Part shown: in pieces, positions 17,566 to 44,235 of the stretch
How positions within the stretch are numbered: the first letter of the stretch is position 1
How the letters are laid out: each line of letters begins with the position of its first letter
DNA from: Selaginella tamariscina
Lineage: Eukaryota; Streptophyta; Lycopodiopsida; Selaginellales; Selaginellaceae
Assembly: GCA_003024785.1 (NCBI GenBank)
Contig: PUQB01000009.1
Location: forward strand, 207,001-271,000
Reading direction: 5' to 3'
DNA length: 64,000 nt
Translations under genes and position numbers: made by a program
The notes under the pieces: generated by a model
Seen by the model: the letters and a program-made list of their open reading frames with translations, nothing else
What the model was told of the DNA's origin: nothing
The model's database searches: none

Positions 17566-19600
17566 TGATACAGGAACATGCATGGTCAATCCTGAAGCTT
17601 GTACTGCCTCAAACACTAAGGACGTATCCTGCACGCAGGAAGGTACAAGATTGATCCTGGTTGTCGGAGAGGAAAACGTGAGCGTCCTAGACCTCCAATC
17701 AATCTGAGGATTTGCAACCACGAACCATGGCATGCCCAAAACGATAGGAGTCGACCGAGTCTTTATCAAGTTGAAGGAAATCGAACAGTTAAATCTGCCA
17801 TGACTGCAGAGAGAGGTATGGTAGCATGAGTAACTACGCCTGAAGCAATTAGACGACCATCGGCCACCTCTACATGAACTGCACGCTTCAACTTCACCAC
17901 CGGAATGCCATGCTGAGTTGTAAAAGTGTCATTCATAAAGCATGCATTTGCACCAGTGTCTAATAGGGCAAACTCCTTGAGCTATCGATTATTAAGATGA
18001 ATGTGTACAGGAAACTTAAGTGATGAAATGGTATGAGCAGCACCAATGGAGCCTGCACCTACGTCCAACTTTGCGGCTCCTAGACGAAGTGGACATTAGA
18101 GTTTTTCGACTGAACTTCAACTTCAACTTCACGCGTCTTGAACTTCTTGGCTTTAATAGGACATTCTACCACCTTGTGTCCTGCTTCACCACAATACAAG
18201 TATAGGTTCTCACTGCGGCGACGTTGCTTCTCAGCAGCGGAAAGAGAGCCACGCTTGGATTTCTCAACCTCCATAGGACTACTCCAGAAGGTGGTGTAGG
18301 AACATGTACCATAGCTGCAGGATTGGTTTGCAGGAACTACTGACGGGATATTTCCTAACGACGCTAGAACAAACGGTTGTCGCAACAAACAGCTTGTTGC
18401 ATGATCTCTACTAATGTTTGGGCATCCGGTAATGTAAGGAGAAGGTCCTTCACGTCATCCCTCAACCCAAAACGGAAGTGTTCGATCAATGCAGTCTCGT
18501 CCCATGGAATGTTCGTGCAAAGTTGCTGAAATTCGAATGCATAGACGGAAGCTGGTCGGGATCCTTGAGTGAGCTTTTGTAACTTCGTGCATGCAGAACG
18601 GTACTTGTCAGGATCCCCAAAGCAGGCTTCAAAGGTAGCCACAAAACCTTCAAAGTCTTTCATCAATGGGTCGTCACGCTCCAGCAAGGGGGCAACCCAA
18701 GCCCGTGGAGATCCACTTAGTAAGGATGCCAAAAGGCCAACCTTTTGTGCATCAATCGAGTAGTGCCGTGGTTGCATGTGGATCAAGAGCCGGATCTGAT
18801 TCAAAAAACCTTGGAAATCGACACAATTACCACTGAACTTTTCTAGCATACTGATCTTCGGCTCCGAAGAAAAGTTTGATGAAGAGGGAACCACCGATGC
18901 CTGAGAGAGAGCCTGTGCAGCAGCCTTGGAGGATGCGTCAGCAGTTGCATGTGCTGCATTGGTGGAACCTTGTAGATTGGTGACCACTTGGCGCAAAGTG
19001 GCCAGCTCATGAAGCAACATTTGGTGCTCGCGTTGAAATTGCTCAAAATTGGCCATGATCTATGAAAGAAAAAAAAAGGAAAATGAAGAAAAAGAATCAA
19101 AGGAAAAAAAGTAGCTGGAAATCGGAAAGCTATGAAATCAGTTACTATCAAACTGTCAAGCCACGATCCAGGAACAAGGGAGTGAGCAGGATTCCAAGAA
19201 CAGGAAGGCTTGACTCAGGAGCAGGACAAGAACTAGGAATAAGACAGGAACAGGATGGGATCCAGGAGTAAAACAGCATCGGGATAGGATCCGGGAGTAA
19301 GACAGAAACTGGAATAGGATAGGAACTAGGAACCAGGAGCAAGATGAGAATCAGGAACAAAACAAGAAGAGAATAGGAAGCAAGGAGCAAGACAAGAACA
19401 AGATAAGACAAGATTGATCGTAAAAAGACTGGTGTTAATAGTGACTGATTGTACAACAATTAGGTCGGAGCTTTTATGCTCACAACTCCAAGCTAATCTG
19501 GTCATGAGTCTAATCTAGTCATGAGTCTAATCTAGTCATGAGCTAAGAATAATGACCCTTATCCTCTAGGCATATCCTGTAGCATATCCTATAGGCATAT

Positions 19601-20274
19601 TGTTAAAGGTAAAATATTAGAACATCCTACTGTGGAGAGAATAAGGGTAGAAAGGTCCGTAGTAAGCATGGAAGGAAAGGCTGTGAAGGAGGAAAATCCT
19701 TACTGAGAGGAAAAGGTGCGTAAGGAAAAGGAAAGAAAGGCTATGAAGGAGGAAAATTCTTACCGAGAGGAAAAGGTGAGTAAGGAAAAGGAAGGAAAGG
19801 CTGTGAAGGAGGAAAATCCTTATCGAGAGGAAAAGGTGAGTAAGGAAAAGAAAAGGATGACGTGGTGAGAGGAAGGGTAGTTAAGGAGTAGTTAGGGCAA
19901 GGGAGAAAGGGTCTCTAGAAGGGTCTCCATAAGAAGTTCTAACAGGACAGAGGGTCTCCATTTGAAGTTCCAGCAGGAGATAGAGGTTTCTACACTTTGT
20001 CTCTTGTATTCATGTAGTAATGAAAGGTGCATATTATAAGATCTTGTGTGTATATATGTATACTCTCAATGAATGGATCTAACAAGGCAATAGCCAAAAT
20101 CCGTTCTTGCTCTTGACTTCGGAGACCAGTCATTGTGGCTTTGAGAGAAGGAGTTTTAATATATGTAAATGTGGAGAGTTGAAGGAAAGAGAGTGTGTAG
20201 CTTTTCTTAAAGGTTAGGAGAAAGGAACCCGGTTAAACAGGAAAAGGTGGGGCTTCTGATTTTCCTGTTTAATA
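19601..20274 (+). repeat. 5' LTR of element C
   Basis: 674 bp. Three tandem units of about 62 bp at 19.67-19.86 kb (GGCTGTGAAGGAGGAAAATC core) are repeated in the right LTR at 23.51-23.70 kb. Confidence 0.87.
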
Positions 20275-23200
20275 TTTGGCGACCACGGAGGGATTTCGCC
20301 ATTGCAGTGTTAGCATTCATTGAGAAAAGAGACTAAAAAGATAAAATTCTCATTCTGAAAAAGGCTCAGAAGGTGTAGAGCCGGATGTGTAAAAGAGAAG
20401 GAATGAATGGAACCTTGGAGGAACCATCGTCCTGATCCAGCCTTAGCTGATCAAAGGAACCAAAGGCAGGCCAATAGAGTGGTTGCCCAACAGCAACCTG
20501 AAACTGACGAAAATAGACGTCAAAATATCCTTGACAAGATAGTAGAGGATATTGCAGAAACAATACAGAAATCTGAGGCTGATCCAGAGAATTGGAGGCA
20601 ATATCAAACAGCTAGTTTAGAGAGACTGTGAGAGGAACGGACCGAGATTGCAAGGAGAAGGATCTCCTGAGAACTCCCGAAGAGGAAGGGAGGAAGGTGT
20701 AAGAGGAAATACACCAGAGCAAAAGATTATTACAAATATGGCACTTTTCCCGGGAATGTTTGGGGGTACGGTGATGTATCCCACATTCTCAGCAGGAAAG
20801 AAAGAAAATCCGAAAAGGCACTTACAACAGTTTGAAGAGGTAGTAAAACTGTATAAGGTGACAGATGCAGAAAGGCTGCTTATATTTCCACATACATTGA
20901 AAGGAAATGCCTCTAACTGGTATTATGATTTAAAAAGGAAGTCAGAGAGGATTATCAGAAGGTTACTGATGCTTTTAAGGAATATTTCAGAAAGGAGGAA
21001 TTGCCAGAGGAACATTAGAGAAGTTAAGGACTATCCTTCAAGGCAAAACAGAAAGATAAATGAATATACACACCGTTTTAAGAAACACGAGAAAAAGTGT
21101 AAGGCATATGTAAAGATGGATGCCTTATTGCAATAGTATAAGCAAGGGTTGCTAAAACCATATAGAGATCTAGCACTCACTATCAATGAAAAAGATAGAG
21201 AGGATCTCATTGATCAATTAAAAATATATGAGAAGAAGAGAAGGCAAATAGAAAAGATTGCAAAAGGAAAGCTGAAAGTATATAGAAGAAAGGAAGAATC
21301 CTCTGATGAAGAGGAAGAGGAAGCTGATGTAGTAAAGGTTCGTAAATATTCAATAGATGAGAAAGCATTGGTTCAAATGATGAAAACCTTAAAGGGAATG
21401 ACAGTTAAGGAGGAGATAAAGGCAAAGGTATGGTGCACTAAATGTAACAATCCGGGCCATACGGTGGAGGAATGTAGGCTGCAACTGCCTACATGCCAAA
21501 TTTGCAGAAAGGAAGGACATGTAGCTTGAAACCGCAGACATTTCCTGAACCAGAATGTGGCTGGTATAGAGAGAGAAAGGAGAATGGATGAACGTACACC
21601 TCCTAGAAGGTTCCCACCTAACAGGAATCGCGGGAATGATAACGCTATTCCTTATGAGAACAGGAATAATATATATGGCAGAAGGAATGAAGTTTCTTAT
21701 CAGAATAGGAACAGTGGATATTATGAAAGAAGGAATGATGTTCCTTACGAAAACAGAGAGGATAGGTATTATGGAGAAAAAAATGGTCCATACAATGGAC
21801 AACAAAAGAATAGATCCTATACAGAAAGAAATGATAAACAATATAGAGGAGAAGTAAGACCTTATCAAGGTCAAAGAGGTAGAAATGATCAATATAATCA
21901 GGTCAATAATAGACAAGGACCACAGGGTAGGAATTTTCCTTCCCATGTTTGTTATACATGTGGTGAAACATGACATATCTCTAGGGAAGTCCTAGGCGGA
22001 ATGTACAACCTCCTACTTCCACCAGAATGACTAATGTGCAGCCTACAACACGGCTTATTCAAATAGAGGAGGAAAAGGATGAGTATCCACCCGTTGCAAG
22101 GGCAGTTATAGCTCTTCAAAGAAGAGAAGGAATCCTCTTATGATGGAGAAGGAGGTAGATATTCCTAACAAGAAGGAGAGCTTGTTACAGGAAAAGGTAA
22201 ACGAGCAGGAAAGGATCCTGACCAGAAAGGTCAGACTGATAACGAATCAGAAGGTACAGACAAAGGTGATATAGATAAAGGTGAACAAAGTTTTTCATTA
22301 TTACCATTACATGATAAAATGGATTCCATGTATCACCAAGCTATAAATCAGGAATAAAGGTTACGCTTGGACAGTTGATAAAGGTAGCTCCTTACATAAG
22401 AAACCAATATTAAATGCATTAAGTTCAGTCAGCAACAAACATCACCTTCACGTGAAGGATACACAGTTTGTAAAATGGATAAGGAAGTACTGTATGAAGG
22501 TGATTATGATGGACAAGTTCCTTGCATCACAGTATATGTGGGAAGAAATAAGTTAAAACGAGTGTTAATAGATGGAGGTTCAGGTGTGAATTTTATTGAA
22601 GAAGGTGAATGTAAAAGGATGGGTTTAGGACCAATCCAACCTGCTCCATTTAACCTTAAAATGGCTGATCAACAGAGTGTAAGGTCACTAGACATAATGA
22701 GAGGAGTCACTATCACAGTAAAAGGATTCAAATATAGGATATCCTTGCTTCCTACAAAAAGAAGAAAAGGATACTGTTTATACTATGTTCTTAGCCAGAC
22801 TATGGATTAAGTCTGATAAGGTTATTCAGAATGGAAAACAGAAAGATGATGGTAAAGAAGGAGAAGGAAAACTAATGATCTTAAACATACTAAAAGGTAT
22901 GTTAAAAAGGAAATCCGACCTAGAAGGATATGATTGGTTTAATGGGCTAGATAATCAGGAAGAAGTAGAAATCCTGAAACATATCCTATTTAAAGGTCTT
23001 AACAATATTGACCTTCACGTAGTGCTGAAAGGAAAGAAAACTGTTCAGCAGAAGGAAAAACAAGACCTGATTACAGAAAAGTTTTATAAGGCAATCCTGT
23101 ATAAGATTGATTTGCAGGAACAACCTTCAGAGTATACATATGTGTATACCACAATCCTTTAAAGCAAGTGAATATAAACACAGAAAAGAAGCCAAAGGAA

Positions 23201-23436
23201 CATGAAGGAAAAACTATTCAGGAACAGGAAAAGAAAGCAAATCCTGATCCTAAGGAACAAGATGCAGAAAGCAAGTGCTGCAACTTAAGGTATCAACTTC
23301 CAACCAAAACTTAGGAAAGTGAAGAACAACTTTTGGAAGTATAAAGGAGAGAATCCACAGTACCATGAAGATCAACATCCAAAGGAAGGAATAGGATAGT
23401 TGCCGTGAGGACACAAAACGAATAAGGAGGGGGCAG

Positions 23437-24116
23437 TGTTAAAGGTAAAATATTAGGAGCATAGACATCCTACTGTGGAGAGAATAAGGGTAGAAGGTCC
23501 GTAGTAAGCATGGAAGGAAAGGCTGTGAAGGAGGAAAATCCTTACCGAGAGGAAAAGGTGCGTAAGGAAAAGGAAAGAAAGGCTATGAAGGAGGAAAATC
23601 CTTACGAGAGGAAAAGGTGAGTAAGGAAAAGGAAGGAAAGGCTGTGAAGGAGGAAAATCCTTACGAGAGGAAAAGGTGAGTAAGGAAAAGGAAAAGGATG
23701 ACGTGGCGAGAGGAAGGGTAGTTAAGGAGTAGTTAGGGCAAGGGAGAAAGGGTCTCCAGAAGGGTCTCCACAAGAAGTTCTAACAGGACAGAGGGTCTCC
23801 ATTTGAAGTTCCAGCAGGAGATAGAGGTTCTCTACACTTTGTCTCTTGTATTCATGTAGTAATGAAAGGTGCATATTATAAGATCTTGTGTGTATATATG
23901 TATACTCTCAATGAATGGATCTAACAAGGCAATAGCCAAAATCCGTTCTTGCCCTTGACTTTGGAGACCAGTCATTGTGGCTTTGAGAGAAGGAGTTTTA
24001 ATATATGTAAATGTGGAGAGTTGAAGGAAAGAGAGTGTGTAGCCTTTCTTAAAGGTTAGGAGAAAGGAACCCGGTTAAACATGAAAAGGTGGGGCTTCCG
24101 GTTTTCCTGTTTAACA
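23437..24116 (+). repeat. 3' LTR of element C
   Basis: 680 bp, highly similar to 19601-20274, so the insertion is comparatively recent. Flanked by CATAT on the right. Confidence 0.87.
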
Positions 24117-26429
24117 CATATCTTGTAGGAATATCCTGTAGGTATATCCTATAGGAATATCCTGTAGGCATATCCTATAGGAATATCCTGTAGGCATATC
24201 CTGTAGGTATATCCTATAACCGTATCCTATAACCTGTATCCTGTATCCGGAATCCTGCATCCTGTATCGGGTTGTGACAACCGAAGGGATGAGTGGCTAG
24301 ATGGAGTGTGCAACTCAGTACATGGGAACACTCGTCTGGTCAAAACCCATTCTCACATTATGATAACCATAGAGATACTCAAGGCTGTTGTGGAAGCAAA
24401 TGTAGACATGATGCCTCACAAATGCCGTACAAAAAATGTAGGGGATAGGGAAAATCTCAAGGTTTTGCCTTCAATTTACACTCAATTGAAGCTGTGTGAA
24501 CATGTGAATAAGTGCCTCAGTTTGATGGGGCTTCAAATAATCTGCATTGAAATACTCATTTTAAGGATGTGAAGATTGCAAAACACTCTAGCTTTTTCAA
24601 GTGTGACACTTGTACATAATTGAAGGTTGCAAAGGCTTGTGCAAAAACCTTAATGGAGATCACTACCATTCAAAAGAAGATGGAGGCCCATATGATTACA
24701 CAACAAACTTGCCAGTCTTAATACTATGCACACCGCATGCTTTCTATGTCACACCCATCAAAATACATGTGCTTGATCCACAACAAGATGGATCATTCAA
24801 AGACTAGCATTCTAAAGCTCATTGCAACACTAAAGTGCCTTGGAAATGTCATGAAACTTCCGATTCATTGACAGGTGTGTTAACACATGGACACGGTTGT
24901 GAATCGTATAAACATTTTTCACTTCCACATTGGTCTAGTGACTCCAATTTCACTATTGGGTCATTGGCTATGTGTTTCAGAAACCTTGAAGCCCACTCGT
25001 GATCTCAAAATGAAGAAACAACACCTTCAACCTTTACATAATGCTCTCATGAACACATTTGCACTTGAGGTTACTTGGGAATATAAGAGGCATTGTCAAT
25101 AGCCTGCACAAAAAACAAATGGCTTTATTAAGAGTTCTAGTTTAGTGGAGGGATCTAGCTCACATAGTGTATATATGTCCTCAACATTAAATAAGCTTCC
25201 TCATCATTTGCTTTTACAGATGAATAATTGTGCAAGCGAGAAGAAAAATAGGTAAATCATTTTAATTAAGGGTTTATCAAGCTCATACTTATTTTTATTT
25301 TCTAAATATGTACTAGCATACTTGTTAATGCTTGTTGCCAAAGGTGTGTTTGAGACAATTAGGCTCAATTTTCTTATGGTTGGTCACACTTATAAAGATA
25401 TTAATACATTCTTCAACAAGGTCTTCAATTCTTTAAAAAGGACAAGTGCACTTACCTTATCACATATGATGGATCTTTTTGAAAATTGCATCTCCAAAAA
25501 AGTTGTGGTTTGCTTGTGACTAAGGTGTCAAACTTTAAAATGTTTCTTAAGGAGTATATCAAAGAGGGGAATGATTCTTTAACTGGTCACCTTGTGCCAA
25601 TATAATTCTTTTTCTCTATAAGAAATGGTATACCTATTATGCAATACAAGTTACGGCCATCAGAGCAGGAGTGGTAACAGAAAGTGGGCTTAATGCTCTT
25701 CAAAAGTGGAGAAGATGGATCCCAAAAGGACAACTAGACCCTATTTCATTGAGTGCCCAACTCAAGGAACAAAAGCTTATTATTGATGGCATCAAAAAAA
25801 TATGACATGGGTTCAAAAATTGATGCCAAAGAATTATGATAAGGCAACTGGTTATTCAGAACTATATAAGAATGTGGTCGACTATTGGGAGATTATTGTT
25901 CGAGAGTTAAAAGGTCTTGTTGTCACAAGTACAGAATTACAACACCCTTTTGGCCTAAAACAAAGTGGCAAGAGGAGATTAAAATGACATTAATGACCGC
26001 AAACGACATAAAAGCCAGTAGTGATGTGAAAGTGCAAACCCCACACTTTGTTGAACAAAGGAAACAAACCTAAACCATATTTTGATTGTTGTAAGGATCT
26101 TCAAAAAATGATGATCGTCCTCATTATTTTAAATGTGTCATATAACCAACCTATTTGGATGGATTAAATTATTAACACACCTAAAGTTATCACAAAAATT
26201 AATATGGTAAAGGTTAGATGGTTTAAACCACAAAAGAGGCAACATGAGAAGGAGAGCAAAAGATATAATAGATGCCTAGAGAAAACATGGTTTCCCAATT
26301 AAAAAGACCCAGCATGTTTTATAAATATTGAATCTATTTGATATGGTGGATGTCAAGAAGTATTAATAAAGTCACAATTAATAAAAATTGCAAAAAAATG
26401 TATGTTTTTTAAAGCTTAAAGCAATTACA

Positions 26430-26956
26430 AAATTATAAAATATAGTATATTTAATATTCATAATTATAATAAACTTTTTAATAATAATACCAAATTGTTA
26501 CTTAACTATATAAATTTATAAAAAGTTATAGAATAGGATTTTGTATATATATATATATATATTATTAGTACAGATTTTTAATTTGTTATATTTAAATATT
26601 AATTTTAATAACAACATAAATAATTATGATGTACCTTTCATGCTTTTTAATAACTTTTATGTTAGCCCATACAATCTTAAATATAATATATTATATAACT
26701 TAATACCTTCTACTTTTATAATGTTATCAAGTTTTGGTCCACAAATGTTATAATTTATTAAAGGGTCAATTACAAAAATAAAATGTTCTAAAGAATATTC
26801 TATCTTTAAACATACATTTTAAAGAATATTCTTTCTTTAAACATATACTATTCTAAAGAATATTCTTTAATATTATAAATTGCTAATTAAATAGCTAAAA
26901 TTACTAATTATTAAGAAATATGACTATAACATGCTCATTTTAGTTACAACATGCAT
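26430..26956. other. AT-rich right end of transposon copy 1
   Basis: Non-coding, very AT-rich, with a (TA)n run at 26.54-26.56 kb and several AAAGAATATTCTTT palindromes (26.78-26.87 kb). It corresponds to 30.85-31.33 kb of copy 2 in reverse complement and ends at the short terminal repeat. Confidence 0.7.
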
Positions 26957-29772: not shown

Positions 29773-30840
29773 ATGCACGTTGTAACTAAAGTGGGCATGA
29801 TACGTGAAAATGGGAATATAAAATAAATTACTAATTAATACTTAAGTTTTAATTATTAATTAATCATTTAATTAATATGTAATTAAGCTTAAATATTAAT
29901 TAATTAATTAATTAATCCTTCAATAACCTTACTTAGTAAGGAATATTCCTAAACTATCTTAGAATATTCATATTATTCTAAAAATAGTTTACAATAATGA
30001 AGAAATACTATCAAACATAATTACAAATGAAATCATTTTCTTATCAACATGTTAATTTATTTATAAATACTTTCTTCCTAACCATACAGAGAAATCTCCT
30101 CATTTTGTTTAAATCATCACTCTCCGGATTAATGAAATCATTTTGGTCAATATCTTGATGTTGTTACCACCACCTAACACTCTCACGAATGCAATTGGGA
30201 GTTGCTATCCTTGTTAATACATAAAATGTAATAAGACCAGGTCTGCATAAAGGCTCATCTAAAGAATGACATTCCTTAAGAATAATATTATAAAGCGCCC
30301 GGTTGCTATCCTTTATTTTATAAAATTCAAAATCACGAGAAAGAAAAGCTTCAGGAAATGTTTGATACAGTGGATATTGCTCACAAAATTTTTTGAGATT
30401 CTTCTTTATGAGGCACGTATCCAAGTAATTCACTAGCTCATCCATAATATCAGTATAAGAATATGGATCGAAAGTGATTAGATGAATACAAGCAATGTTT
30501 TGGTTGAGCATAACCTTCTGAGGAGAGTCGTCTACCACTAACATCTGTGCGTTCTTCATTATCCTTAAGCGACTGATCTCCCCATGAGTCCCAATTATTC
30601 TTTCATTCTTGAAGAAGTATGGCTTGTTTTCCTTTCTTATGTTGTGAAATTCGAGAGGTTTATAACATATTCGCTGGTCAAAAATCCAATCTTTACGAAT
30701 CACCTCTTTTGCAACACTATAATGTTTCTTAAGCAAATTTAACAGTGGTGTTAAGTTATGAATCTGCATGCATGACCAAATCCCCACAAGCGCACTCATC
30801 TCCTTAAGCTTTTGAAAGAGACGATCCAGCCCTGGACGAA
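29773..30840. repeat. Left long terminal inverted repeat of copy 2
   Basis: Reverse complement of about 43.19-44.24 kb with only scattered differences. The outermost about 390 bp is AT-rich non-coding; the rest is gene P sequence. Inside it, from 30841, sequence matching the original short end of copy 1 follows (AATGGGCATGGTTATAGT), so the long repeat was added to or replaced the original terminus. Confidence 0.9.
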
Positions 30841-30846
30841 AATGGG
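30164..30846 (-). pseudogene. Partial gene P duplicate in the left inverted repeat
   Basis: Minus strand, open for more than 220 codons. It begins at the residues FRPGLDRLFQKLKEM of the phosphatase domain and continues through WSCMQIHNL, KDWIFDQRI, KPYFFKNERIIG and LVVDDSPQKVMLNQN to a C-terminal tail ending RESVRWW. The N-terminal catalytic motif (DVNGV) is absent because the duplicated segment starts downstream of it. This copy is more open than the one on the right, which has a frame change near 43.35 kb. Without motif I it is not expected to be an active phosphatase. The upstream residues in the same frame (MLIIRKWDYNHA) come from the old transposon end and are fortuitous. Confidence 0.82.
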
Positions 30847-31327
30847 CATGGTTATAGTCCCATTTCCTAATAATTAGCAATTTTAACTATTTAATTAGCA
30901 TTTTCTAATATTAAAGGAATATTCTTTAGAATATATATTTGAAAAGAATATTCTTTAGAATATTCTATTTTGTATTCGACCCTTTAATAAATTATAGCAT
31001 TCATTGAACAAAAATTAATAACATTATAAAAGTAGAAGTATTAAATTATATAATATATTGCCTAATATAACAATTAAGGAAGAGCATAAGAGGTACATTA
31101 TATAAATATTGATGTTGTTATTAAAATATTAATATTTAAATATAACATTATTAATTAAAAATTTGTAGTAGTAATAATATATATATAAAATCCTATAATA
31201 ATATAGTCAATCTTCCATATCATTTTTTAAATTTATATAGTTAAGTAAACAATTTGGTACTATTATTAAAGAGTTTATAATAATTATGAATATTAAATAT
31301 ATGATATTTTATAATTTTGTAATTGCT
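30847..31327. other. AT-rich spacer between left repeat and gene T
   Basis: No gene. It contains AAAGAATATTCTTTAGAATA-type inverted motifs (30.91-30.97 kb) and corresponds to 26.43-26.93 kb in copy 1. Confidence 0.7.
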
Positions 31328-34300
31328 TTAAGCTTCAGAAAACATACATTCCCTTGCAGTTTTGTTAATCGTGACTTTATCAACGCTTCTTGACATCCAC
31401 CCATATCGAATGGATTTAACATTTATAAAACATGCTGGGTCTTTTTGATTGGGAGACCATGTTTTCTCTAGGCATCCATTATATCTTTCGCTCTCCTTCT
31501 CGTGTCGCCTTTTTTGTGGTTTGAACCATGCAACCTTAACAATACTATTTTTTGTGATTACTTCAGGTGTGTCGATAATTTGACCCATCCAAATAGGCTG
31601 ATTATATGACGCATCTGGAGTAATGAGAACCATCATTAGTTTTTGAAGATCCTGCAGCAATCAAAGTATGCTTTAGGTTTTTGGTTCCTTTGTCCAACAA
31701 AGTGTGGGGTTTGCACTTCCACATCACTACTGGCTTCTATGTCGTCTGTGCTCAGTGATGTCATTTCAATCTCCTCTCGCCACCTTGTTTTAGGCCAAAA
31801 AGGGTGTTGCAATTCTGTACTTGTGACAGTAGGCCCTTCCAACTCTCGAACAACAGTCTCCCAATAGTCGACCACATGCTTATATAGTTCTGAGTAACCA
31901 GTTGCCTTATCAGAATTCTTTGGCATCGATTTTTGAACCCATGCCACATATTTTTTGATGCCATCAATAATAACCTCTTGTTCCTTGAGCTGGGCACTCA
32001 ATGGAATAGGGTCTGGTTGTCCTTCTGGGAGAAGTGGCTTTCCATTCTCTCCACTTTTGAAGAGCATTAACCCCTCTTTCGGTAACCACTCCTGCTCTGA
32101 TGGCCGTAACTTGTACTGCATAATAGGTATACCATCTCGTATGGAGAAAAAGAATTGTAGCGGCACAAGGTGACCAACTAAAGAATCACTCCCTCTTTTA
32201 TATACTCCTTGAGAAATTTTTTGAAGTCTGGCACCTCAGTCACAAGCAAAGCACAACTTTTTTTGGAGATGCAATTTTCAAAAAGATTCATCATATGCGG
32301 TAAGGTAAGTGCACTTGTCCTTTTTGTAGAGTTGGAGACCTTGCTGAAGAACGCATCAATATCTTCATGAGTGTGACCAACCATAAGAAAACTGAGCGTG
32401 ATTGTTTCAAACACACCTTTGGCAACAAGCATTGACAAGTATGCTAGCACATATCTAGAAAATAAAAAAAGTAAGTATGAGCTTGAGAAACCCTTAAGTA
32501 AAATGATTTACCTATTTTTGTTCTCGCCTGCACAATTATCCATCTGTAAAAGCAAATGACGAGGAAGCTTATTTGATGTTGAGGACACATGTACACTATT
32601 TGAGCTAGATCCCTCCACTGAACCTGAACTCTCAACAGGGCCATCTGTTTTTTGTGCAGGCTACTGACAATGCCTCTCATATTCCCAAGTAGCCTCAAGT
32701 GCAGACGTGTTCATGAGAGCATTATGTAAAGGTTGAAGGTGTTGTTTTTCACTTTGAGATCACTGATAGGACTTGTCTGTGAGTGGGCTTCAAGGTTTCT
32801 GAAACACATGGCTAACGACCCAATAGTGAAATTGGAGTCGCTAGACCAATGTGGAAGTGAAAAGTGTCCATATGACTCACAACCGTGTCCATGTGTTAGC
32901 ACACCTGTAATGAAATCGGAAGTTTCATGACATTTCAAGGCACTTTGGTGTTGTAACGAGCTTTGGAATGCTGGTCTTTAAATGATCCATCTTGTTATGG
33001 ATCAAGACCTCCATCTTCTTTTGAATGGCAGTGATCTCCACCAAGGTTTTTGCACAAGCCTCTGCAGCCTTCAATGATGTACAAGTGTCACACTTGGAAA
33101 AGCTAGAGTGTTTTGCAATCTCCACATCCTTAAAATGAGTATTCCATATGTTGTTGAAGGTACCAGTGCAGATTGCTTGCAGCCCATCAAATTGAGGCAC
33201 TTGTTCACATGTTCACACAGCTTCAATTGAGTGTAGATTGAAGGCAAAACCTTGAGATTTTCCCTGATCCCTGCATTTGTGGTTCGGCATTTGTGAGGCA
33301 TCCTGTCTGCATTTGCTTCCACAAAAGCCTTGAGTATCTCTATGGCTGCCATAATGTGAGAGCGGGTTTTGACCAAGCGAGTGTTCCCATGTACTGAGGT
33401 TCGCGCTCCATCTAGCCACTCATCCCTCCGACGGTAGAACGTGGTCTTTGGGATCCCGTATATACTGTACCAAGCTTTGAAGCAGATGGCCACCTTATTA
33501 AATACCATGGATGTACTCTGATAACCTGTGTCTGAGGTCATTCCATCAATACACCCAGTTAGTGCTGCATATACAAACTCATGCCTTTGCTTTTGGGTGA
33601 GCGTACGAAAGACATGTCTACATTGGGTAATTTCATTCCGGTCTGCCATCTGACAACACTTCTTCTTGCAGCAATCAATCGTGGAAATGCTCATAACACT
33701 TTCGGAAGATGTAGGATCCATCTTGACCCTCTTGCTGAAACTTGCAGGGGAAGATCTGCAACCCATGAATCGCCTTTTTCTTACAATAGGACCAATGCAA
33801 GGAACCTCTTCAAATATGAGTTGTTCTTCCGGGTTGTTATTATTGAAATTCAACCCAGAATATGTTGAACCATCTTCCGTCTTAATTCAGATGTTCGCCA
33901 CCTCACGAGGGATCCAGGATGCAAAGTGCCATTAGGTGAAACCTCTGTCACAACTACACCCACGAAGTCGGACCCTAGTTTCTCTTCTGACACTGCTTCC
34001 ATTGGATTTATAGCTGTGATGATGCCTCTCCCAACCTCAATCTCATGAAGAAAGAGAATCACCTCATCCATCACAGCAGGCAAGCCATCATCTGAAAAAC
34101 TCGTGCTACTGTTTGTTTGTGACTCTGTATATTCTATGTCAGCCTTGACTTCATCCAAATTCCACAATACAGGAGAACCCTCCTCAAATTCCATTCCGGA
34201 ACCTCAACATGCTTGAAAATGGTGTTCACCCATACGTACACACAAGATCCTTGGGCAATATTGTGACATGATGCATTATCATCTCGAACTTCCACAGTTC

Positions 34301-34364
34301 CAGTGCCAACTATCTCGTTGTTCCGAAGAAGACATATTTTATCTCCAGTATTATACATATTGTC
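31328..34364 (-). CDS. DUF7869-type putative transposase, gene T of copy 2
   Basis: Coding parts on the minus strand: N-terminal segment from 34364 (MYNTGDKICLLRNNEIVGTG), a following acidic and VVVTEV segment (34.2-33.85 kb), a middle region (33.85-33.07 kb) with YYRRRDEWL-like sequence, a cysteine segment SSFSKCDTCTSLKAAE (about 33.1 kb), then QMDNCAGENKNR (about 32.53 kb) and, after a small intron (32510-32458), FLMVGHTHEDIDAFFSKVS (about 32.35 kb). The C-terminal half (32.17-31.33 kb) ends in a domain with WMGQII and VKVAWFKPQ, similar in pattern to chromatin-reader folds. DNCAGENKN plus VGHTHEDID is the signature of DUF7869 proteins, which occur in multicopy elements and are probably RNase H-like transposases (inference). 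Two or more frame shifts and one short internal loss relative to copy 1 make it likely non-functional as sequenced. Transcription probably starts upstream of the leader exon near 35.4-35.7 kb. Confidence 0.7.
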
Positions 34365-35381
34365 CTGCACATAAATAATTGTGTTATTTATGATATCTGT
34401 TTATGCAATATTTCTAAGAAATCATAACTGCGGTTGCTTAATAATATGCATGTGCAATAATACATAATTATGTATAAAGATAATATCTCATGCTTTATTA
34501 ATACAACTGATGGGGGATTAATCCCGCCCACGACTCCATCCGACGAGGAACGATGGGCGGGATTAATCCCGCCGATTTTCCTCGCGGGAGGGAATCGTCG
34601 CGGGATTAATCCGCCGAGGTACTTCCTCGTCTGAGAGAGGCGGCGGGATTAATCCCCCGCCTACTCCTCCGACGAGGAAGTGGCGGGATTAATCCCGCCG
34701 CTTCTTCCTCGCGGGAGGGAATCGCGGCGGATTAATCCCGCCGCAAATCCCTCGACGAGGAAGAGGGGGCGGGATTAATCCCGCCCACAACACTGACGAA
34801 GGAGAATAGGCGGCGGGATTAATCCCGCCCACAACTCTGACGACGGGGAATAAGCGGCGGGATTAATCCCGCCCACAATTCTCTCCGAAATTATGATTTT
34901 AAAGAAATTCGGGATGAATCCTGCCCACAAATATTTAAAACAGGAATGTGATGGCGAGATTAATCCCGCCACACCTTCTCTGCCTCCTAAAATGGATGGC
35001 GAGATTAATCCCGTAGATAACTCTTTTCAATAAATTCAAGTATCTCTTTATCAGTTGAGAGAGTTATCGGCGGGATTAATCCCGCCGCTCTTCTTAAGAG
35101 GCGGAGAAGCATTGCCCGAACTAATTCTGTCATAGCTATCAAAGAATGGTGGCGGGATTAATCCCGCCACCTCTTCGAAGAGGCGAAAAAAAATGGCCGG
35201 ATTAATCCCGCCGCCCGGCTAACCGAGAATATTAAGTTAAAGTATATTTAAACGGGATAAATCCCTAACAGAATATATTGTAATCCTAATGCATTCCTAA
35301 ATCCCTAAATTCTAAAATTTAAGAGAGAATGTAAGAGAGTGAATCTTTATAAATATATTTAAATTTGTTTATAATACTTAC
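34365..35381 (-). other. Leader intron of gene T (inferred)
   Basis: On the minus strand a strong donor (ACAA|GTAAGTATT, boundary at 35381/35382) and an acceptor (TTTATGTGCAG|GACAATATG, boundary at 34365/34364) delimit a 1,017-bp intron just upstream of the first coding exon. Palindrome cluster 1 lies wholly inside it. Confidence 0.5.
34511..35216. repeat. Palindrome cluster 1 (about 15 copies of an 18-bp palindrome)
   Basis: Around 15 full or near copies of GGCGGGATTAATCCCGCC, which is its own reverse complement, spaced 25-100 bp apart. Spacers carry related CG-rich arms (CCGACGAGGAAG, TTCCTCGCGGGAGGGAATCG). The GC-rich cluster stands out sharply against the AT-rich surroundings. Two degenerate copies (CGGGATGAATCCTG, CGGGATAAATCCCT) lie in or just beyond it. 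Confidence 0.95.
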
Positions 35382-35690
35382 TTGTAAACAGCACTGAAGG
35401 CGCCGTGCTTTCCTATAAACAATAGCGCACCCAATTTAATGTCGCTCCTGAGCTGATCACTAAGAAGAAAAAAGAAAATCTGAAGAGTGAAAAATAAAGA
35501 AATAAAGAAACCCTTGCCGGAGAAAGAACCAGATCTGAATTTGAGTGGGAAATTAAATGCATTTTCAAATTTACATGTCAGACCGACAATACTTATGTCA
35601 GAAATTCGAAATTTTTGAAATAACAGAAAAGAAAATTTAAGATGAGTTGAAACAAATAACCGACAGTCTGACATATATACTCTCCAATTC
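35382..35690 (-). other. Leader exon of gene T (inferred)
   Basis: Minus-strand stretch of about 300 bp ending in the strong donor at 35381. It stays open for 98 codons in one frame but the encoded peptide is phenylalanine/leucine-rich and unlike any domain; it is more likely 5' untranslated. Confidence 0.4.
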
Positions 35691-35699
35691 CAATGAGTG

Positions 35700-37360
35700 T
35701 TTTAAAATTGCATTTAATGTCATTCAAGTGCTTCAAGCTGTTTAATATTACGAAATTTTTGTAATTATTCTACATTCTTAATATTCAAGTATATATTATT
35801 AAGTTTATATTATATATATATACACTAATACAATAAATAAATTGATATATTATTATGTATCATTTAAAATATATTCATAGTCTGTTTATTATTATTATTT
35901 TCTTAATTACTCGAGTAATTAATTTACATTTCCTACTATTAATGGGATATTCTTTGTTATTTTCTTAATATTCAAAGAATATTCCAATATTAAACATGAT
36001 TATCATAATTAAATTAGTCTTATTCTTAATTATCTCAGTAATTATTCTACATTTGTATATATTAATGGGATTTTCTCAATTAATTTGTTATTATTTCAAG
36101 AATATTCTAGTGTTAAACCTTATTATCAATATTAAATTAATATATATTATTAAAACTATATATGGCTATATATTAGATAAAATCATATATTATTATGTAT
36201 AATTTAAAATATGTTCATAGTGTGTATATTAATATTATTTTCTTAATTATTCGATGTTTGTTTTGCACATATTATATATAAACACAAATCATAAATTTAT
36301 ATATACATGTGCACACGCATTAGAAGCACTTACAGAGACACATATGCACACACATGCACATTGTCCTAAACCAAACTTGAGAAATTATATGTTACTTCTT
36401 TATTGAAAAACATCATGTTCAACGCATGTATGATCTATATGTACTCAGTGTGTGTGTATGTAACACATTGAATTTACACATGTAATATATATATGTATGT
36501 CTGTGTGTATACACGTGTGTATGTATATATGTGTACTAATATAATATATGCAATGTGTATGATTTTCATTTGTTAACACTCTATCTCTTCTCTCATACAT
36601 ACACAGTGTCCATGCATAATCCCTTCTCTCATACATACACACCATGCATGATCCATAATATGTACTGATGTTACAATATTATGTAATATGTATAATATAT
36701 ATCTGTGTATAACACTCACCTCTCATACATAAACACCATGCATGATCCATCCTAACCCTAAACCCTAAACCCTAAACCCTATGTAACACATTGAATTTAC
36801 ACATGTAATATGTATGTATGTCTGTGTGTATACACGTGTGTATGTATATGTGTTACTAATATATCCAATGTGTATGAATTTAATTTGTTAACACTCTCAC
36901 TCTTCTCTCATACATACACACCATGCATAATCCATGTAAATATGTAGTCTCTCTTCTCTCAAACATACACACCATGCATGATCCATAATATGTATTGTCA
37001 CTCTTTCTCATACATACACACCATATTGATCATGTACTCTGTCTCTCTAATATTAATATGTACTATATGTATATATGTCTATGTATATAATACTATGTGT
37101 GTATATATGTATCGCTGCACGTGAAACTTTAACACTCTCATGAACACACACGTGTTAAACCCCTGCATGATATTTATTCTTGGGGTGTATGTGATACACC
37201 CACGCACACGCACATGCTGATAATATAATGAAAGAATATTCGTTTAGGGTGAATCACTAGTTTAATCTTTTAGGGTTTAAGTATATTCTTAGAAGGAATA
37301 TTCAATTAGGGTTAATATATATTCTATTCCTTTTAGGGTTTAAATATATTCCTAGGGTTT
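35700..37360. other. AT-rich centre between divergent genes T and M
   Basis: No gene seen. It has duplicated AT-rich blocks (ATGTATMATTTAAAATAT near 35.86 and 36.20 kb), repeated CTCATACATACACACCATGC units (36.6-37.02 kb) and CA/TG microsatellites. The promoters of both genes must lie somewhere here if the leader exons are right. Confidence 0.6.
36751..36780. repeat. Telomere-like CCCTAAA repeat
   Basis: CCTAACCCTAAACCCTAAAC and the following AAACCCT units form about four copies of the plant telomere heptamer, interstitially, inside the transposon centre. Single TTTAGGGTTT boxes recur near 37.27-37.35 kb, so it may be a telo-box-type promoter element. Confidence 0.8.
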
Positions 37361-37405
37361 GTAAGGCGGCGGCGGCGGTGAAATCTCCTTCTCTCTCTCT
37401 CACAG
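37360..37405 (+). other. Leader exon end of gene M (inferred)
   Basis: A GCGGCGGCGGCGGTGAAATC segment is followed by a CT-rich tract and the donor CACAG|GTGAGATC at 37405/37406. Matching acceptor TATTTTGCAG lies at 39380. The resulting 1,975-bp intron would contain palindrome cluster 2. Confidence 0.4.
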
Positions 37406-37419
37406 GTGAGATCTCTTTC

Positions 37420-37855
37420 TCTCTCACACACACACTCCTCTGAGTTTATATTTATTATTTTTATTTACATATATTTATATGTGTGTATCTTAATAATATA
37501 ATTTAGATCTCTATCTCTCGCACACACGCACACTCGTATACATCACACACACACACACACACATATATACAACACACACACACACACAACACCACACACA
37601 CACACATATATATATATATATCCTTCTCTCTCTCTCTTCTCTATAGATCTCTATCTCTCGCACACAACGCACACTTGTATACATATACACACACAAATAT
37701 ATATATATATATTAATATATATATATATCTGTGTGTTTTGTGTTTGTGTATCTGTATAATTTTATTAATTTATTAATTTTATCTCTTGCACACGCACGCA
37801 CACTCCTGTTTATTTGTATGATTTTATTTGTTTTGCTCACACACGCATACTCACG

Positions 37856-37896
<41 letters not shown>

Positions 37897-38175
37897 CCTA
37901 TATACATATAATATACATACATATATTATGTACCAGTATCTGTATAATTCTATTTATTTATCTATTTCTCGCACACACATGCACACTCCTGTATATATAT
38001 ATGTGTGTGTGTTGTTTGTTTATCTGTATTTTATTTGTTTCACACACGCATACACACGATATACATATAATTTGTGTATCGGTATAATTTGTGTATCAGT
38101 ATAATTTATCTGATTTGTCTATCTCTGGCACACACACGCACTCTCCTACACACATATACATATATATAAATATAT
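37420..38175. repeat. Microsatellite block (CA, TA, CTCT repeats)
   Basis: Dense ACACAC/ATATAT/CTCTCT repeats, partly duplicated as larger blocks (CTATCTCTCGCACACACGCA occurs near 37.51 and, slightly changed, 37.65 and 37.97 kb). Open frames here are low-complexity artefacts. Confidence 0.85.
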
Positions 38176-38182
38176 GTGCATA

Positions 38183-39080
38183 GCGGCGGGATTAATCCCG
38201 CCGCCCTTCAGGCAAGCTATTCGGTTAGTCTCATGAGCGGCAGGATTAATCCCGTCGCGTACGCATGCCCTACGCAGAATCGGGCGGGATTTATCCCGCC
38301 GCCAAAGGCCTGCCTGAAGGGCCTAGGCAGCGGGATTAATCCCGCTCGATTCCGCGCAGGCATTGGCGTCCGGCGGGATTAATCCCGCCGCCTAGGGCCC
38401 GAGTAAAGGGCCTGGGCAGCGGGATTAATCCCGCTGCCCTATGCGGAATCAGGCGGGATTAATCCCGCCACCAAAGGCCTGCCTGAAGGGCCTAGGGGGA
38501 TTAATCCGCCCGATTCCGCGCAGGGCATTGGCGTCCAGCGGGATTAATCCCGCCACCTAGGCCCGAGTGAAGGGCCGCGCGGGATTAATCCCGCTGCCCT
38601 GCGCGGAATCGGGCGGGATTAATCCCGCCAAAGGCCTGCCTGAAGGCCTAGGCGGGATTAATCCCGCCCAATTTCCGCGCAGGGAATTGGCGTCCGGCAG
38701 GATTAATCCCGCCGCATAGGGACCGAGTGAAGGCCCTGGGCGGCGGGATTAATCCCGCCGAGCCTTTCAATGCCTATTGGAGGAATGAATCCCGCCACCC
38801 TTCCTTTTTTCTCATTGGTGAGTCGGACCAATCCCAAACGTTTTCTGTCTGAGACGTAGAAGGTTTACAACATACCAATGGAGAGAACTGGAAGGGTGGC
38901 GAAATTCATTTAACCATCCTTACATGGTGGGCGAGATTAATCCCGCCTCCTTTCTGGAGTCACTGAAGGGGTGTGCCAAATAAATCCTGCCAGTTCTCTC
39001 TGAGACCGAGAAGGGTGGCAAGATTAATTCCGCACTCCCGTTCAAGGCCTCCAGAAAGGTGGCGAGATTAATCCCGCCGC
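38183..39080. repeat. Palindrome cluster 2 (about 18 copies of an 18-bp palindrome)
   Basis: About 18 full or near copies of GGCGGGATTAATCCCGCC. Between 38.28 and 38.76 kb they form a higher-order repeat of about 150-175 bp, each unit holding about four palindromes separated by AAAGGCCTGCCTGAAGGGCC, CGATTCCGCGCAGGCATTGG and GGCCCGAGTAAAGGGCC spacers. Copies beyond 38.78 kb are more diverged (GGAGGAATGAATCCCGCC, GGCGAGATTAATCCCGCC). Decay is mostly at CG sites. Confidence 0.95.
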
Positions 39081-39187
39081 ACCTTCCATGTGAATATATA
39101 TGTGTATTAGTATATATAAGTTGCATATCTCATTTTATTTACTTTTATCATCTTATCATAATATTTCGAGTAAAAGCTAGGAACTAT

Positions 39188-39288
39188 GTAAAACTGTCCA
39201 GAGCTCACATTTGTGGTGGTTCTAAAACGAAATGTTATCTTTCTTTTGCACTAGCACAAAGGTGAGCTTTGGACAGTTAATTCCGTCA
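39188..39288. repeat. Conserved hairpin upstream of gene M in copy 2
   Basis: Arms CTGTCCAGAGCTCACATTTGTG and its approximate complement CACAAAGGTGAGCTTTGGACAG enclose about 45 bp. The arms, but not the loop, are kept at 14.44-14.54 kb in copy 1. Confidence 0.75.
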
Positions 39289-39380
39289 CTTCTCTCTGTG
39301 TATTATTTTTGTATATTCGGGTTTATACAAGTGTGTGTGCGTTTTTATATGATTTGTATTCATAGTGTATTATTTTGCAG

Positions 39381-42300
39381 AAGGACGATTTAATTAAACA
39401 AGGAGATCGAGTCATTAGTATGGAGTCGTCGTCAAATTCTGGGTAAGAATTAAAATAAAATCTGTTATACTCGGATATGTGCTTGAACTAATCATTTTTG
39501 TATTCAGATGTGGAATTGAGGTGACATTAAAGACGAGAGCAGGAGAAGAGATGGGCAGGGGGATTCTGGAATCAACTTGGCCATATTTAAACTAAACGGG
39601 AAGCGCATTGGAACAACCATGGTTGCTGTCAAACTAACCTCTGTCACATCGCATGGACAAGCAAAACAATGGAAAGTGGGTGTGCTAGTCAAGCATCCGA
39701 AAGCATGCTGTGAACCCAGATTGAACGATGCTCGACACATATGCCTTGTTCCATCCAATGTCACGTTCTCGGATCCAGAGGTCGCCAGTTACAACATTAA
39801 TTTCGGGTGGTTTTGTCGACTTGTGGATAATGACGTTCACGTGTTCACTAATGATGTTGACCGTGGAGTTCTTCTTCAACTCAACGAAAGCCCATCTATG
39901 GAGGGGATCCACTGGATGTCTACTTCGAAGATCTTCAGACTCATCGAGTAGGTGTATTCTCAGGAGATATTGCTTCACAATACAGAAAATCCACAAGTGG
40001 AGCAATCGTCCCTCTTCACATTGAAGAAGAACACAGCGACATCATAAAGGAGATTGAGAGGGTGGCTTGGTCTCAGGTTCTTTACAGATCACGTTCAATT
40101 TGCTTAGCAAATTTCGGGAGCTGGAAGAGTGTGCCGAGAACATTAGAACAGCATCAATCGGGGATCACACATGTTGATTCGGATCGTAGAAGAAAATCAT
40201 TAGTCGTTTTGTCAGCTGCACCTGTGGCGTCCCATGCTGCAATAAGCCACAAGGAAATGATGTTGGATGATAGGATTTACGAGTGTAGGGTTAAGTATTG
40301 CAGCGTCAACCCAAACTTCAATTACAGGCCACTCAATCAGGAACGTGTAGCTGAGCTCATGGAGAAGATGAAGGACGACAATTCTTACACCGTTCCACAT
40401 AATGCTGTTTTGTGCGCATACTACGAGAGAAACAAAGGCGCTGACAAAGTGTGGATCACAACACCGGAACAAATGAGGAAGGTTCAGACGGAGAATAGAA
40501 AATCATCAAGTACTACATCATTAGTGGCCAGCACACAATAACGGCAGCCCAACGACTTCTCGACGAACACAACAAAGGAACGATGGCAACAAAACTTTCC
40601 GAGCATACCCGTGAGAAGCTGACGAAAAGATCGGCGTTTTTAGCGAAGCCGAATCTCACAATCGAGCAGTACCATAAGTTATCGGCGGAATGGGACGCTG
40701 CAGACACCAACCACTACAACAGCAAAATATGGGAGAAGTTCAAACACACGCGAGCCGTGTGGGAATCTCTTCAGCGACCACAAAGAGCTACCGCAGGGAA
40801 TACACAATCTGCGGACTACCGGGTAAGCAAATTGTTTGGGCGGGATTTATCTCGCCGGTATATTAATCTGTCTTTTTTCTCAGAGAGTTGAAGAAATTGT
40901 AGCAGTTGATTTTGCCCAGGTGGGCGGGAAGGAAACATCCTTTTTGATGATGTTGATTTCTTGTCCCGAGGATAGGATCTTTGCAAATGGTTGGGGATTA
41001 TGGAATCCTTTGCAAAAGGAACACTGAAGAAGAAGCAGACAAGTGAAGTGGAGCCCTCAGAGAAGTCTGCAAAGAAACCCAGTAAGACGCCGAAGGCTAA
41101 GTCTGTTCAATCTATAAAGGATGTAGACAACGATTTCAAGCTCACATGGTTGAAGCCTTTAAATGGAACAACGATGGAGGAGATGGAAGTCTTGGCTGAT
41201 TTGGTGATTGATGGCAAATTACAGATTAACAACAGCAGCCCACCTCTCCTTTTCATCTCAAGGCAATGGAGTTGAAGACGGTCAGGCACTTCAAGGAGTG
41301 GTTGGGAATACACTGCCACAAACTGGGTTGGATTTCGGCTTCAACATACGAAGAGGTCAGCAAATATTTGCATGTGACAAATGATGATATGCTTGTCGAA
41401 TGGGTGAATCAATCGGAAGATCTGGGCAAGAATCTATTGCACGCCAACGCCAAAAAGGAGAACATTGCGATGACGCCTTCTCTTATGGCAGTCCTTCAGC
41501 AGCGGAGAACCGAGTTGAACCTTATAAAGGAGGATGCTACGAATCACGACAAGCCCTACAGATGTTTGTTGTTGGATTCGGAGACTTTATGGGGTACCAT
41601 CACTGCTTGTAGGAAACCGTTTCAATTGTTCGTGATGGATCGGCGGGTGTCAAAAAATCCTTCGACAGACAGGCACTAGAGGATTTGGTGGAGAAACTTA
41701 GCCGTGCAAGCATGTACAAAGAAGGTATTTATTATTGAATTCATACTTGCACTCTTGACTGATATCTACGTTTTCAGGTATTTATTTCTTGATTCTTGCT
41801 CATGTCACCGATACCTTTGCCTTCTCCTTTGCCAAGAGGAATAAACATCGTTGGACAGGATTTTATATGAATGATGCTGATCCGAAGTGCATTGATTCGG
41901 TTGTTCACTTGGTTGTTAGGAATGCGCCAAAAATTTCAAACTTCCAAATGACTGGCCAGGCATCTGTTTGCACTCCAACGGCCCTGAACCTCCATCCGAT
42001 ACACCGATAGGTGAGAGTGACGTATTCGGCAATGTACGTTATCCAAACATCACAAGTCAAGCGGCACGGAGCATCGTCAACTTGATCAGGGGTCCTCACA
42101 GTGATGCGTGGGTTTTTGACTACTGCACTAGGGGGTCCGTCTTGAAGGAGTGTTACCTTCGGATACATGTGTATTTGCCGTTGAAAAGGATAAGACCATG
42201 GTTGAGGACCTGAACAAGTGGATAGATAGGTTCTCAACTGATACCCCAACGAATCCATAAAGGAGTATTTGAGAAAGTTCCCTCCGATAAGTGCGATAGC

Positions 42301-42535
42301 TCTGAAGACGAATCTGGTTCAATGTCGGAGTCTGAGGACGAACTTCAATCAGATATTAGACCGGAAGTTATCTCGAGGAGTACAGAACATTCGCACACTC
42401 CATTACCCATGGAAACATCAATAGAAGACAGAAGATCTTGAACCATCTCACAAGCGGCTTAGACCTTCTTCGCCTCACTCAGAAGGTAATAGCGAAGAAG
42501 AATTGTTAATGAGTTTTAGAGTGACGAATAGTTGT
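39381..42535 (+). CDS. ParB-like + DNA methyltransferase-like protein, gene M of copy 2
   Basis: Start ATG at 39420 (MESSSNSG, then donor GG|GTAAGAAT; acceptor at 39507). Further introns include 40823-40883 and about 41732-41781. Order of parts: an N-terminal region with LNGKRIGTTMVAVKL (39.6 kb); a ParB/sulfiredoxin-like segment with NYRPLNQERVAELMEKMK (40.32 kb) and YYIISGQHTITAAQRLLDE (40.52 kb), the latter matching the G-H/Q-R box of ParB; a lysine-rich linker (41.03-41.1 kb); and a C-terminal region in which WVFDYCTRGSVLKEC (42.11 kb) is followed at the expected distance by CVFAVEKDKTMVEDL (42.17 kb), resembling motifs I and II of permuted (beta-class) DNA methyltransferases. The acidic tail ends near 42.53 kb. 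Known phage and bacterial ParB-methylase fusions have this order. A DPPW/DPPY motif is not evident; LLLDSETLWGTI (41.57 kb) is the nearest candidate. The frame shifts several times. Confidence 0.5.
40839..40856. repeat. Single palindrome inside an intron of gene M
   Basis: GGCGGGATTTATCTCGCC lies in the intron 40823-40883. The matching intron of copy 1 (near 12.75 kb) has a decayed TAGGACTTGTCAATA at the same place. Confidence 0.7.
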
Positions 42536-42720
42536 AAATGAGTGTAACATAAGGCATTTTTGTATATTTCGTTTATATTTGTACAGAAAATAAATTCTCA
42601 AGGATTAATGAAGCTTTTAGTTCAAACATGGGTCACACATTAACAAGGTAAATAATATACCTTGATAATTTTAAGGTCAGCTAATTATCATTTTGCAGAT
42701 GTAATGAAACAATTGAGAAC

Positions 42721-43760
42721 ATGGATTTTCAGCATTGGCATGAGGTAAGAGAGGGGTTTGGCGACAATTTCTTGTGCCACATGTCAGAATGACAGAGTTC
42801 ATGCAGGAAATGGATAATAATGCAGCTCAAAACATCGTTACCATGGGGGCCACTTCAGTTTTTTCATCATCATTTTTATTGGCTTCAGTTCCGAAATCAA
42901 TTTCTTCAGCGCATGCAATATCTGAATCTTGTAAGGATGATGTACAATTAAATGATGAAGGGATAGGCAACGAGATAGTGGCAACGGATAAATGTGAAAG
43001 GGAGCAAACAAGTGATTTGCAAAGTATTCAAGAGGCAACGCTATCCATGTTACTCATGGCCATATTGTGTTGTTGGATGTCAATGGTGTTCTGCTTCATC
43101 GACAAAGGCCCGAGGATAGGAAAAAAGAAATCAAACAAGGAGATTTCATTCCTTGTCATGGTAAATTTCGATATGATATTATTTTTCGTCCAGGGTTGGA
43201 TCGTCTCTTTCAAAAGCTTAAGGAGATGGGTGCGCTTGTGGGGATTTGGTCATGCATGCAGATTCATAACTTAACACCGCTGTTGAATTTGCTTAAGAAA
43301 CATTGTAGTGTTGCAGAAGAGGTGATTCGTAAAGATTGGATTTTTGACCAGCGAATGTTATAAACCTCTCGAATTTCACAATATAAGAAAGGAAAGCAAG
43401 CCATACTTCTTCAAGAATGAAAGAATAATTGGGACTCATGGGGAGATCAGTCGCTTAAGGATAATGAAACATATCTTAGTAGTAGACGACTCTCCTCAGA
43501 AGGCTATGCTCAACCAAAACATTGCTTGTATTCATCCAATCACTTTCGATCCATATTCTGATACCGATATCATGGATGAGCTAGTGAACTACTTGGATAC
43601 GTGCCTCAGAAAGAAGAATCTCGAAAATTTTTGTGAGCAGTATCCACCGTATCATACATTTCCTGAAGCTTTTCTTTCTCGTGATTTTGAATTTTATAAA
43701 ATGAAGGATAGCAACCGGGCGCTTTATAATATTATTCTTAAGGAACGTCATTTTAGATGA
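42721..43760 (+). CDS. FCP1/HAD-type phosphatase-like protein, gene P of copy 2
   Basis: Start ATG at 42721 (MDFQHWHE) followed by a short intron with donor GAG|GTAAGAGAG and acceptor CATGCAG|GAAATGG near 42.81 kb; both are kept in copy 1. Then a low-complexity linker (42.82-43.03 kb) and the phosphatase domain: motif I HGHIVLLDVNGVLLHRQR (43.06-43.11 kb), FRPGLDRLFQKLKEMGALVG (about 43.19 kb), WSCMQIHNLTPLL (motif II, 43.25 kb), KDWIFDQRM, KPYFFKNERIIG and LVVDDSPQKAMLNQN (motifs III/IV, 43.48 kb). Plant FCP1-homology proteins with DLNG at motif I are the nearest family I know; like them it has Asn where classical DxD enzymes have the second Asp. Frame changes occur before motif I and near 43.35 kb. 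From 43.19 kb on it lies in the right inverted repeat. Probably captured from a host gene long ago, since copy 1 has it too. Confidence 0.75.
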
Positions 43761-44235
43761 GCCTTTATGCAGACCTTTCTTATTACATCTTATGTATTAA
43801 CAAGGATGGCAACTCCCAATTGCATTCGTGAGAGTGTTAGTGGTGGCAACAACATCAAGATATTGACCAAAATGATTTGATTAATCCGGAGAGTGATGAT
43901 TTAGACAAAATGAGAGATTTCTCTGTATGTTAGGAAGAAAGTATTTATAAAAATTAACATGTTGATAAGAAATGATTTCATTTGTAATTATGTTTGATAG
44001 TATTTCTTCATTATTGTAAACTATTTTTAGAATAATATGAATATTCTAAGATATTTTAGGAATATTCCTTACTAAGTAAGGTTATTGAAGGATTAATTAA
44101 TTAATTAATTAATATTTAAGGCTTAATTACATATTAATTAAATGATTAATTAATAATTAAAACTTAAGTATTAATTAGTAATTTATTTTATATTCCATTT
44201 TCACGTATCATGCCCACTTTAGTTACAACGTGCAT
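43186..44235. repeat. Right long terminal inverted repeat of copy 2
   Basis: Inverted partner of 29773-30840. The outer about 390 bp is AT-rich (TTAATTAATTAATTAA runs) and ends ACTTTAGTTACAACGTGCAT; the inner part is the 3' two thirds of gene P. Confidence 0.9.

Follow-up and report, generated by a model that had tools for sequence, protein, structure and literature searches.

Arrays of an 18-bp palindrome between the divergent genes of a DUF7869 transposon in Selaginella tamariscina as candidate protein recognition sites

VANDALs are Mutator-like, and their VANC system is a worked example of a transposon turning off host silencing by sequence. The arrays of VANC motifs sit in noncoding regions of the VANDAL elements (PMC5735166; PMC10398659). 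According to the sections of the former report used here, the VANC21 motif comprises nine bases (YAGTATTAY) and its arrays vary between related elements (PMC5735166). Sola2 elements are described in the relevant part of their source as having short inverted repeats at their termini and AT-rich target duplications of 4 bp (PMC3627910).

The locus described here was found in a 64,000-nt stretch of the Selaginella tamariscina genome, referred to as the window. It resembles VANDAL/VANC of Arabidopsis in that the noncoding parts of one transposon family contain a single short motif as tandem repeats, as far as the consulted part of the VANC report describes it (PMC5735166). Unlike VANDALs, it has a DUF7869 transposase, and the motif is an 18-bp perfect palindrome where the VANC21 motif has nine bases. 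A further difference is that VANC targets evolve fast, whereas the palindrome seems the same in old as in young copies. The logic is known, here with an unrelated transposase family and an 18-bp perfect palindrome. A Mutator-like transposase was considered and rejected, DUF7869 being the sole Pfam match above the cut-off in the transposase gene. With En/Spm (CACTA) the element shares the many motif copies and a stretch in the left gene that resembles Transposase_23 (TNP1/EN/SPM) below the cut-off; its arrays, however, are internal between divergent genes, and its target duplications measure 4 bp instead of 3. An assignment to CACTA was likewise discarded, CACTA termini and subterminal motif placement both being absent. 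By comparison of their ends, Sola2 and the present element have in common short inverted repeats at the termini and 4-bp duplications rich in AT, but palindrome arrays are not mentioned in the passages on Sola2 used here (PMC3627910).

The array-bearing element is a degenerate DNA transposon with a DUF7869 transposase (Table 1). Its termini read (A)TGCA[ACT]GTT[GA]TAACTAAA..., and in copies on contig C1 the short terminal repeat appears as TGCA[AT]GTTGTAACTAAAATGGGCATG on the left with the match TGCACGTTGTAACTAAAGTGGGCATG on the right, some copies showing a few mismatches. Read by eye with ATGCA taken as the element end, exact AT-rich 4-bp target duplications (ATGT, TTAT, ATAA) flank three of the five C1 copies with both ends; one of the other two has three of four duplication bases and one is ambiguous. 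For the window copy, with its duplicated end, no target duplication was found. The left end of other copies falls immediately beyond the position equivalent to 30836, and those C1 copies for which the left end was fetched carry no right-end duplicate there. Since the usual C1 form ends at this place, the left side of the window copy bears an additional right end, namely a duplicate (29774-30842) of the right end (43183-44234), NIF gene pieces included. Complete sampled copies measure 13.6-14.8 kb, excluding one with a gap of N. Both arrays are present, 2.98-3.60 kb apart, in six of ten C1 regions (A, E, F, G, H, J); region B has the right array only and C the left only, D is interrupted by a gap of N, and rearrangement is seen in I. 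Array size differs among young C1 copies (94-99% coding-half identity), the sampled segments, incomplete ones included, containing 16-45 sites. Two rearranged older copies (L029 and L030, near 2057-2072 kb on C1) show palindrome spacings of 29, 44-45 and several hundred bp, unlike the usual arrays. In the older copy 2 of the window, the intergenic block with the arrays is missing together with the 5' portion of the transposase gene, and no palindrome site was found. Tandem coding-like repeats with units of about 110 bp lie at 16412-17575, inside a nested insertion of this copy.

Table 1. Features of the transposon copies in the window (positions of the whole stretch)
Feature	Position	Strand	Remarks
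Copy 1 of the transposon	29774..44234		Inverted repeats of ~1.07 kb at both ends, 95% identity (self-comparison)
NIF (FCP1-like phosphatase) gene piece	30167..30880	-	In duplicated left end
Left gene, DUF7869 (PF25273) transposase	31331..34372	-	E 1.9e-25; broken frames; exon limits by eye
Left palindrome array	34511..35212		15 sites, 7 exact; upstream of transposase gene
AT-rich noncoding stretch between arrays	35213..38184		CA/TA repeats; telomere-like CCCTAAA run near 36760
Right palindrome array	38185..39078		18 sites, 6 exact; upstream of second gene
Imperfect inverted repeat between right array and right gene	39186..39278		Matched in 3 sampled C1 copies, also in inverted sense
Right gene, unnamed protein	39381..42257	+	Broken frames; exon limits by eye
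Lone imperfect site	40839..40856	+	2 mismatches; apparent intron of right gene, intron read by eye
NIF gene pieces	43016..43760	+	Right end; open frame of a C1 copy matches PF03031
Copy 2 of the transposon	7351..26955		Older, inverted, rearranged, with nested insertions; seen by self-comparison of the window; junction ~14534-14540

No complete open frame was found in the window copy for the left, right or NIF genes. The left gene has 94 homologues, among them proteins of Riccia, Physcomitrium, molluscs and corals, which, compared at the protein level, belong to the same transposase family; its best match, from a metagenome, covers 92% of the query stretch at 45% identity. Besides the N-terminal Transposase_23-like stretch it contains an HTH_psq-like motif, both weak and below Pfam's cut-off. 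For a relative of this DUF7869 family (P0005), a predicted model contains Tudor/Agenet-like and BAH-like chromatin-reader parts. In the case of the right gene, no homologue was obtained at E<=1e-3 among 6,616 candidates, and none at E<=1 among 7,996 candidates for its middle part. Its comparison with Pfam and NCBIfam profiles gave no match above the cut-off, and a PHROG family of unknown function matches weakly (E 0.035). A short N-terminal stretch is common to the left and right genes (12/37 identical, E 2e-5 in a single comparison). The NIF phosphatase-like cargo of a C1 copy has DVNG in place of the usual DxDx motif; judged by this motif, the cargo may have been captured from the host and be of a non-catalytic type.

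The palindrome, GGCGGGATTAATCCCGCC, is two-fold symmetric. Allowing up to five mismatches, we found 33 sites in two clusters of 15 and 18, which agrees with the sequence-only reading, where about 33 copies in two clusters had been reported at the correct coordinates and between divergent genes, here the DUF7869 transposase to the left and the unnamed gene to the right. The copies had also been called perfect. This applies to the 13 exact sites and, as regards self-complementarity, to two more at 38329 and 38418, in which both outer bases are altered; the others among the 20 non-exact sites, which differ at 1-5 bases, are imperfect. The AT-rich setting holds for the DNA around the clusters, but the clusters themselves are richer in GC. 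With at most three mismatches the window contains 30 matches, 29 of them inside the clusters, and 100 dinucleotide-shuffled versions of the window gave none. Gaps of 43-46 bp make up 18 of the 31 within the clusters, and over 11 sampled segments the spacing peaks at 44-45 bp. Higher-order repeats are present in the right array, as seen by self-comparison. A site 1633-1778 bp beyond the last right-array site occurs in the window and in seven sampled copies. The inverted repeat next to the right array has a diverged counterpart in copy 2, read by eye at about 14450-14540.

In the whole genome (300.7 Mb, 1391 contigs) the exact 18-mer occurs 27,128 times, where an independent-base estimate predicts 0.0006 copies; the reversed pattern, used as control in the same genome, does not occur. 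Copies were sampled from contig C1, from four further fetched loci, one of them also on C1, and from the window. The C1 stretches surround the first 100 listed sites, all on this one contig, and were picked for having sites; in them, non-array element sequence is found no more than 2.3 kb from each of the 101 exact sites. A first look with a 401-base transposase query yielded 1,642 candidates. The 40 that were scored, including the window, all show 99-100% identity, which shows a recent burst.

An alignment centred on the palindrome, with 320 sites from 11 segments, gives a mean pairwise identity of 0.86 in the 18-mer, a value partly due to the choice of sites by their likeness to it, against 0.30 in the flanks (28 bp per side, the two bases adjoining the 18-mer excluded). 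Between the two window arrays the spacers show no relation, 1 of 14 left spacers scoring higher against right ones than the best of 20 shuffles; with the additional site in the intron, the same word thus stands in at least three contexts. The window spacers are also found in the same array of the young copy J (14/14 left, 15/16 right). As old copies we took the four loci, the window aside, that best match copy 2. In coding sequence they are about 80-88% identical to the window copy, and they retain palindrome arrays at the same place, with 22, 23, 12 and 23 sites, of which 1, 1, 0 and 2 are exact. L047 was excluded from the spacer tests because L046 and L047 look like one lineage; three old copies were thus compared with five young ones (the window copy, A, E, G and J). 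Old left-array spacers still match the young ones (11/11, 7/10 and 10/10 above 20 shuffles). On the right, two old copies could be compared with young right arrays: 3/6 and 1/8 spacers score above 20 shuffles, and 4/6 and 2/8 reach p<=0.05 with 200 shuffles. The right spacers of L049 resemble young left spacers better (6/8 in both tests), as against 1/6 for L046. On this side the spacers have changed far more than the word, in one lineage without whole replacement. The sequence-only reading had named confinement of the palindrome to the element as support and had suggested selection for it rather than for the spacers; the C1 sample bears out the former, and the latter is upheld by the alignment identities and by the right arrays of old copies. 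Its remark that spacers differ is correct between units and between clusters, but among young copies of the same array they are alike. That reading would have been refuted by spacers no less conserved than the palindrome from copy to copy, and this applies in part: young copies share their spacers and those of old left arrays can still be matched, whereas in old right arrays they match only partly.

At old sites, C>T and G>A make up most of the changes (31/47, 25/32 and 52/65), which would be consistent with ordinary host methylation acting on dead copies. Paired compensating changes are not commoner than by shuffling (7 vs 8.4), which fits recognition of a sequence better than a hairpin. Outside the 18 bp, 0.17-0.49 of sites pair in mirror symmetry, peaking at 1 bp (0.45) and at 7-9 bp (0.38-0.49). 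The symmetry has no clean end at 18 bp, and the spacers therefore contain their own inverted repeats.

An array of recognition sites is the best reading of these clusters because the palindrome is, in the C1 sample, restricted to the element and is better kept than its spacers. On balance we lean towards regarding both clusters as binding-site arrays for one sequence-specific protein, most likely encoded by the element, which would act on the shared intergenic region. Binding by a protein, its origin in the element and the effects of binding are inferences. The candidate would be the product of the transposase gene or of the right gene, reading the two-fold symmetric GGCGGGATTAATCCCGCC as a dimer. 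By occupying numerous sites ahead of both divergent genes, the protein would label the DNA as 'self', and it would control the intergenic region common to both genes. It could keep this region open against silencing as in VANC, tune transcription and/or help transposition in the manner of TnpA. Against such arrays of binding sites stands that young copies and the left arrays of old copies keep their spacers too, that the mirror symmetry extends past the 18 bp, that the motif seems stable where VANC targets evolve fast, and that the searches above gave neither homologue nor profile match for the right gene while the matches of the left gene to Transposase_23 and HTH_psq are weak.

The reader of the sites might also come from the host, the element having gathered the palindromic site of a host activator as an enhancer for its two genes. 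This would agree with arrays upstream of both divergent genes, with a perfect dyad suited to a dimeric factor and with a motif that is the same in old and young copies, as expected of a conserved host reader. It would, however, burden the host with a heavy decoy load of 27,128 sites, all with one element family in the C1 sample, and we consider it unlikely. The palindrome is not known to match any plant transcription-factor site. If host proteins do bind instead, a transposon would have spread decoy or enhancer sites on an unusually large scale. Somewhat more doubtful is an origin with no recognition function at all, by amplification driven by tandem repeats or palindromes (slippage, hairpin-mediated duplication) and hitch-hiking with a successful transposon. 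The variable array length, the spacing peak, the inverted repeats within spacers and the tandem expansion seen in the higher-order repeats of the right array all speak for it. Yet tandem duplication copies the spacer too, while the palindrome alone is common to both window arrays and the intron; besides, it is better kept than the right-array spacers in old copies, and compensating changes are not enriched.

Sites that serve only as transposition accessories or for repression, with no anti-silencing role, have a model in TnpA of En/Spm, which in the part of the source used here binds repeated subterminal motifs, helps excision and regulates (PMC2613891). The present arrays are internal, the first site lying about 3.7-3.8 kb from the left end in sampled copies and the last one 5.2 kb from the right end of the window copy, which differs from the subterminal TnpA motifs and makes such a restricted role improbable. 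The element had further been thought to encode a ParB-like or methyltransferase-like protein with parS-like or methyltransferase self-recognition sites. A ParB-like pattern can be seen by eye in the right gene (NPNFNYRP...ISGQHTITAAQ), but neither Pfam and NCBIfam profiles nor PDB sequences gave a match, nor did a homologue appear at E<=1 among 7,996 candidates; this claim is not supported, and we give sites of that kind hardly any credence.

Returning to binding by a protein of the element itself, we tentatively raise the possibility of a second, independently evolved and sequence-specific system of anti-silencing or self-recognition in a plant DNA transposon. In it, a DUF7869 transposase family, with P0005 as a relative modelled with chromatin-reader parts, and an orphan partner gene would use arrays of the stable 18-bp palindrome to mark the element's own copies, about 27,000 sites having been spread in one genome. 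If true, the unrelated transposase family and its arrays would allow a direct test of the repeated evolution of self-recognition, and the site and its binding protein might form a strong natural pair.

The window is plant nuclear DNA, with a NAM/NAC gene piece at 60 kb, pieces of Ty3-type retrotransposons and a telomere-like CCCTAAA run. Inverted repeats at 54821-55500, fold-back-like by eye, lie beside a direct duplication of 91% (47558-48517/53875-54816). As a separate observation, seven prokaryote loci (L001-L007) each contain two 12-base cores, 18-42 bp apart.
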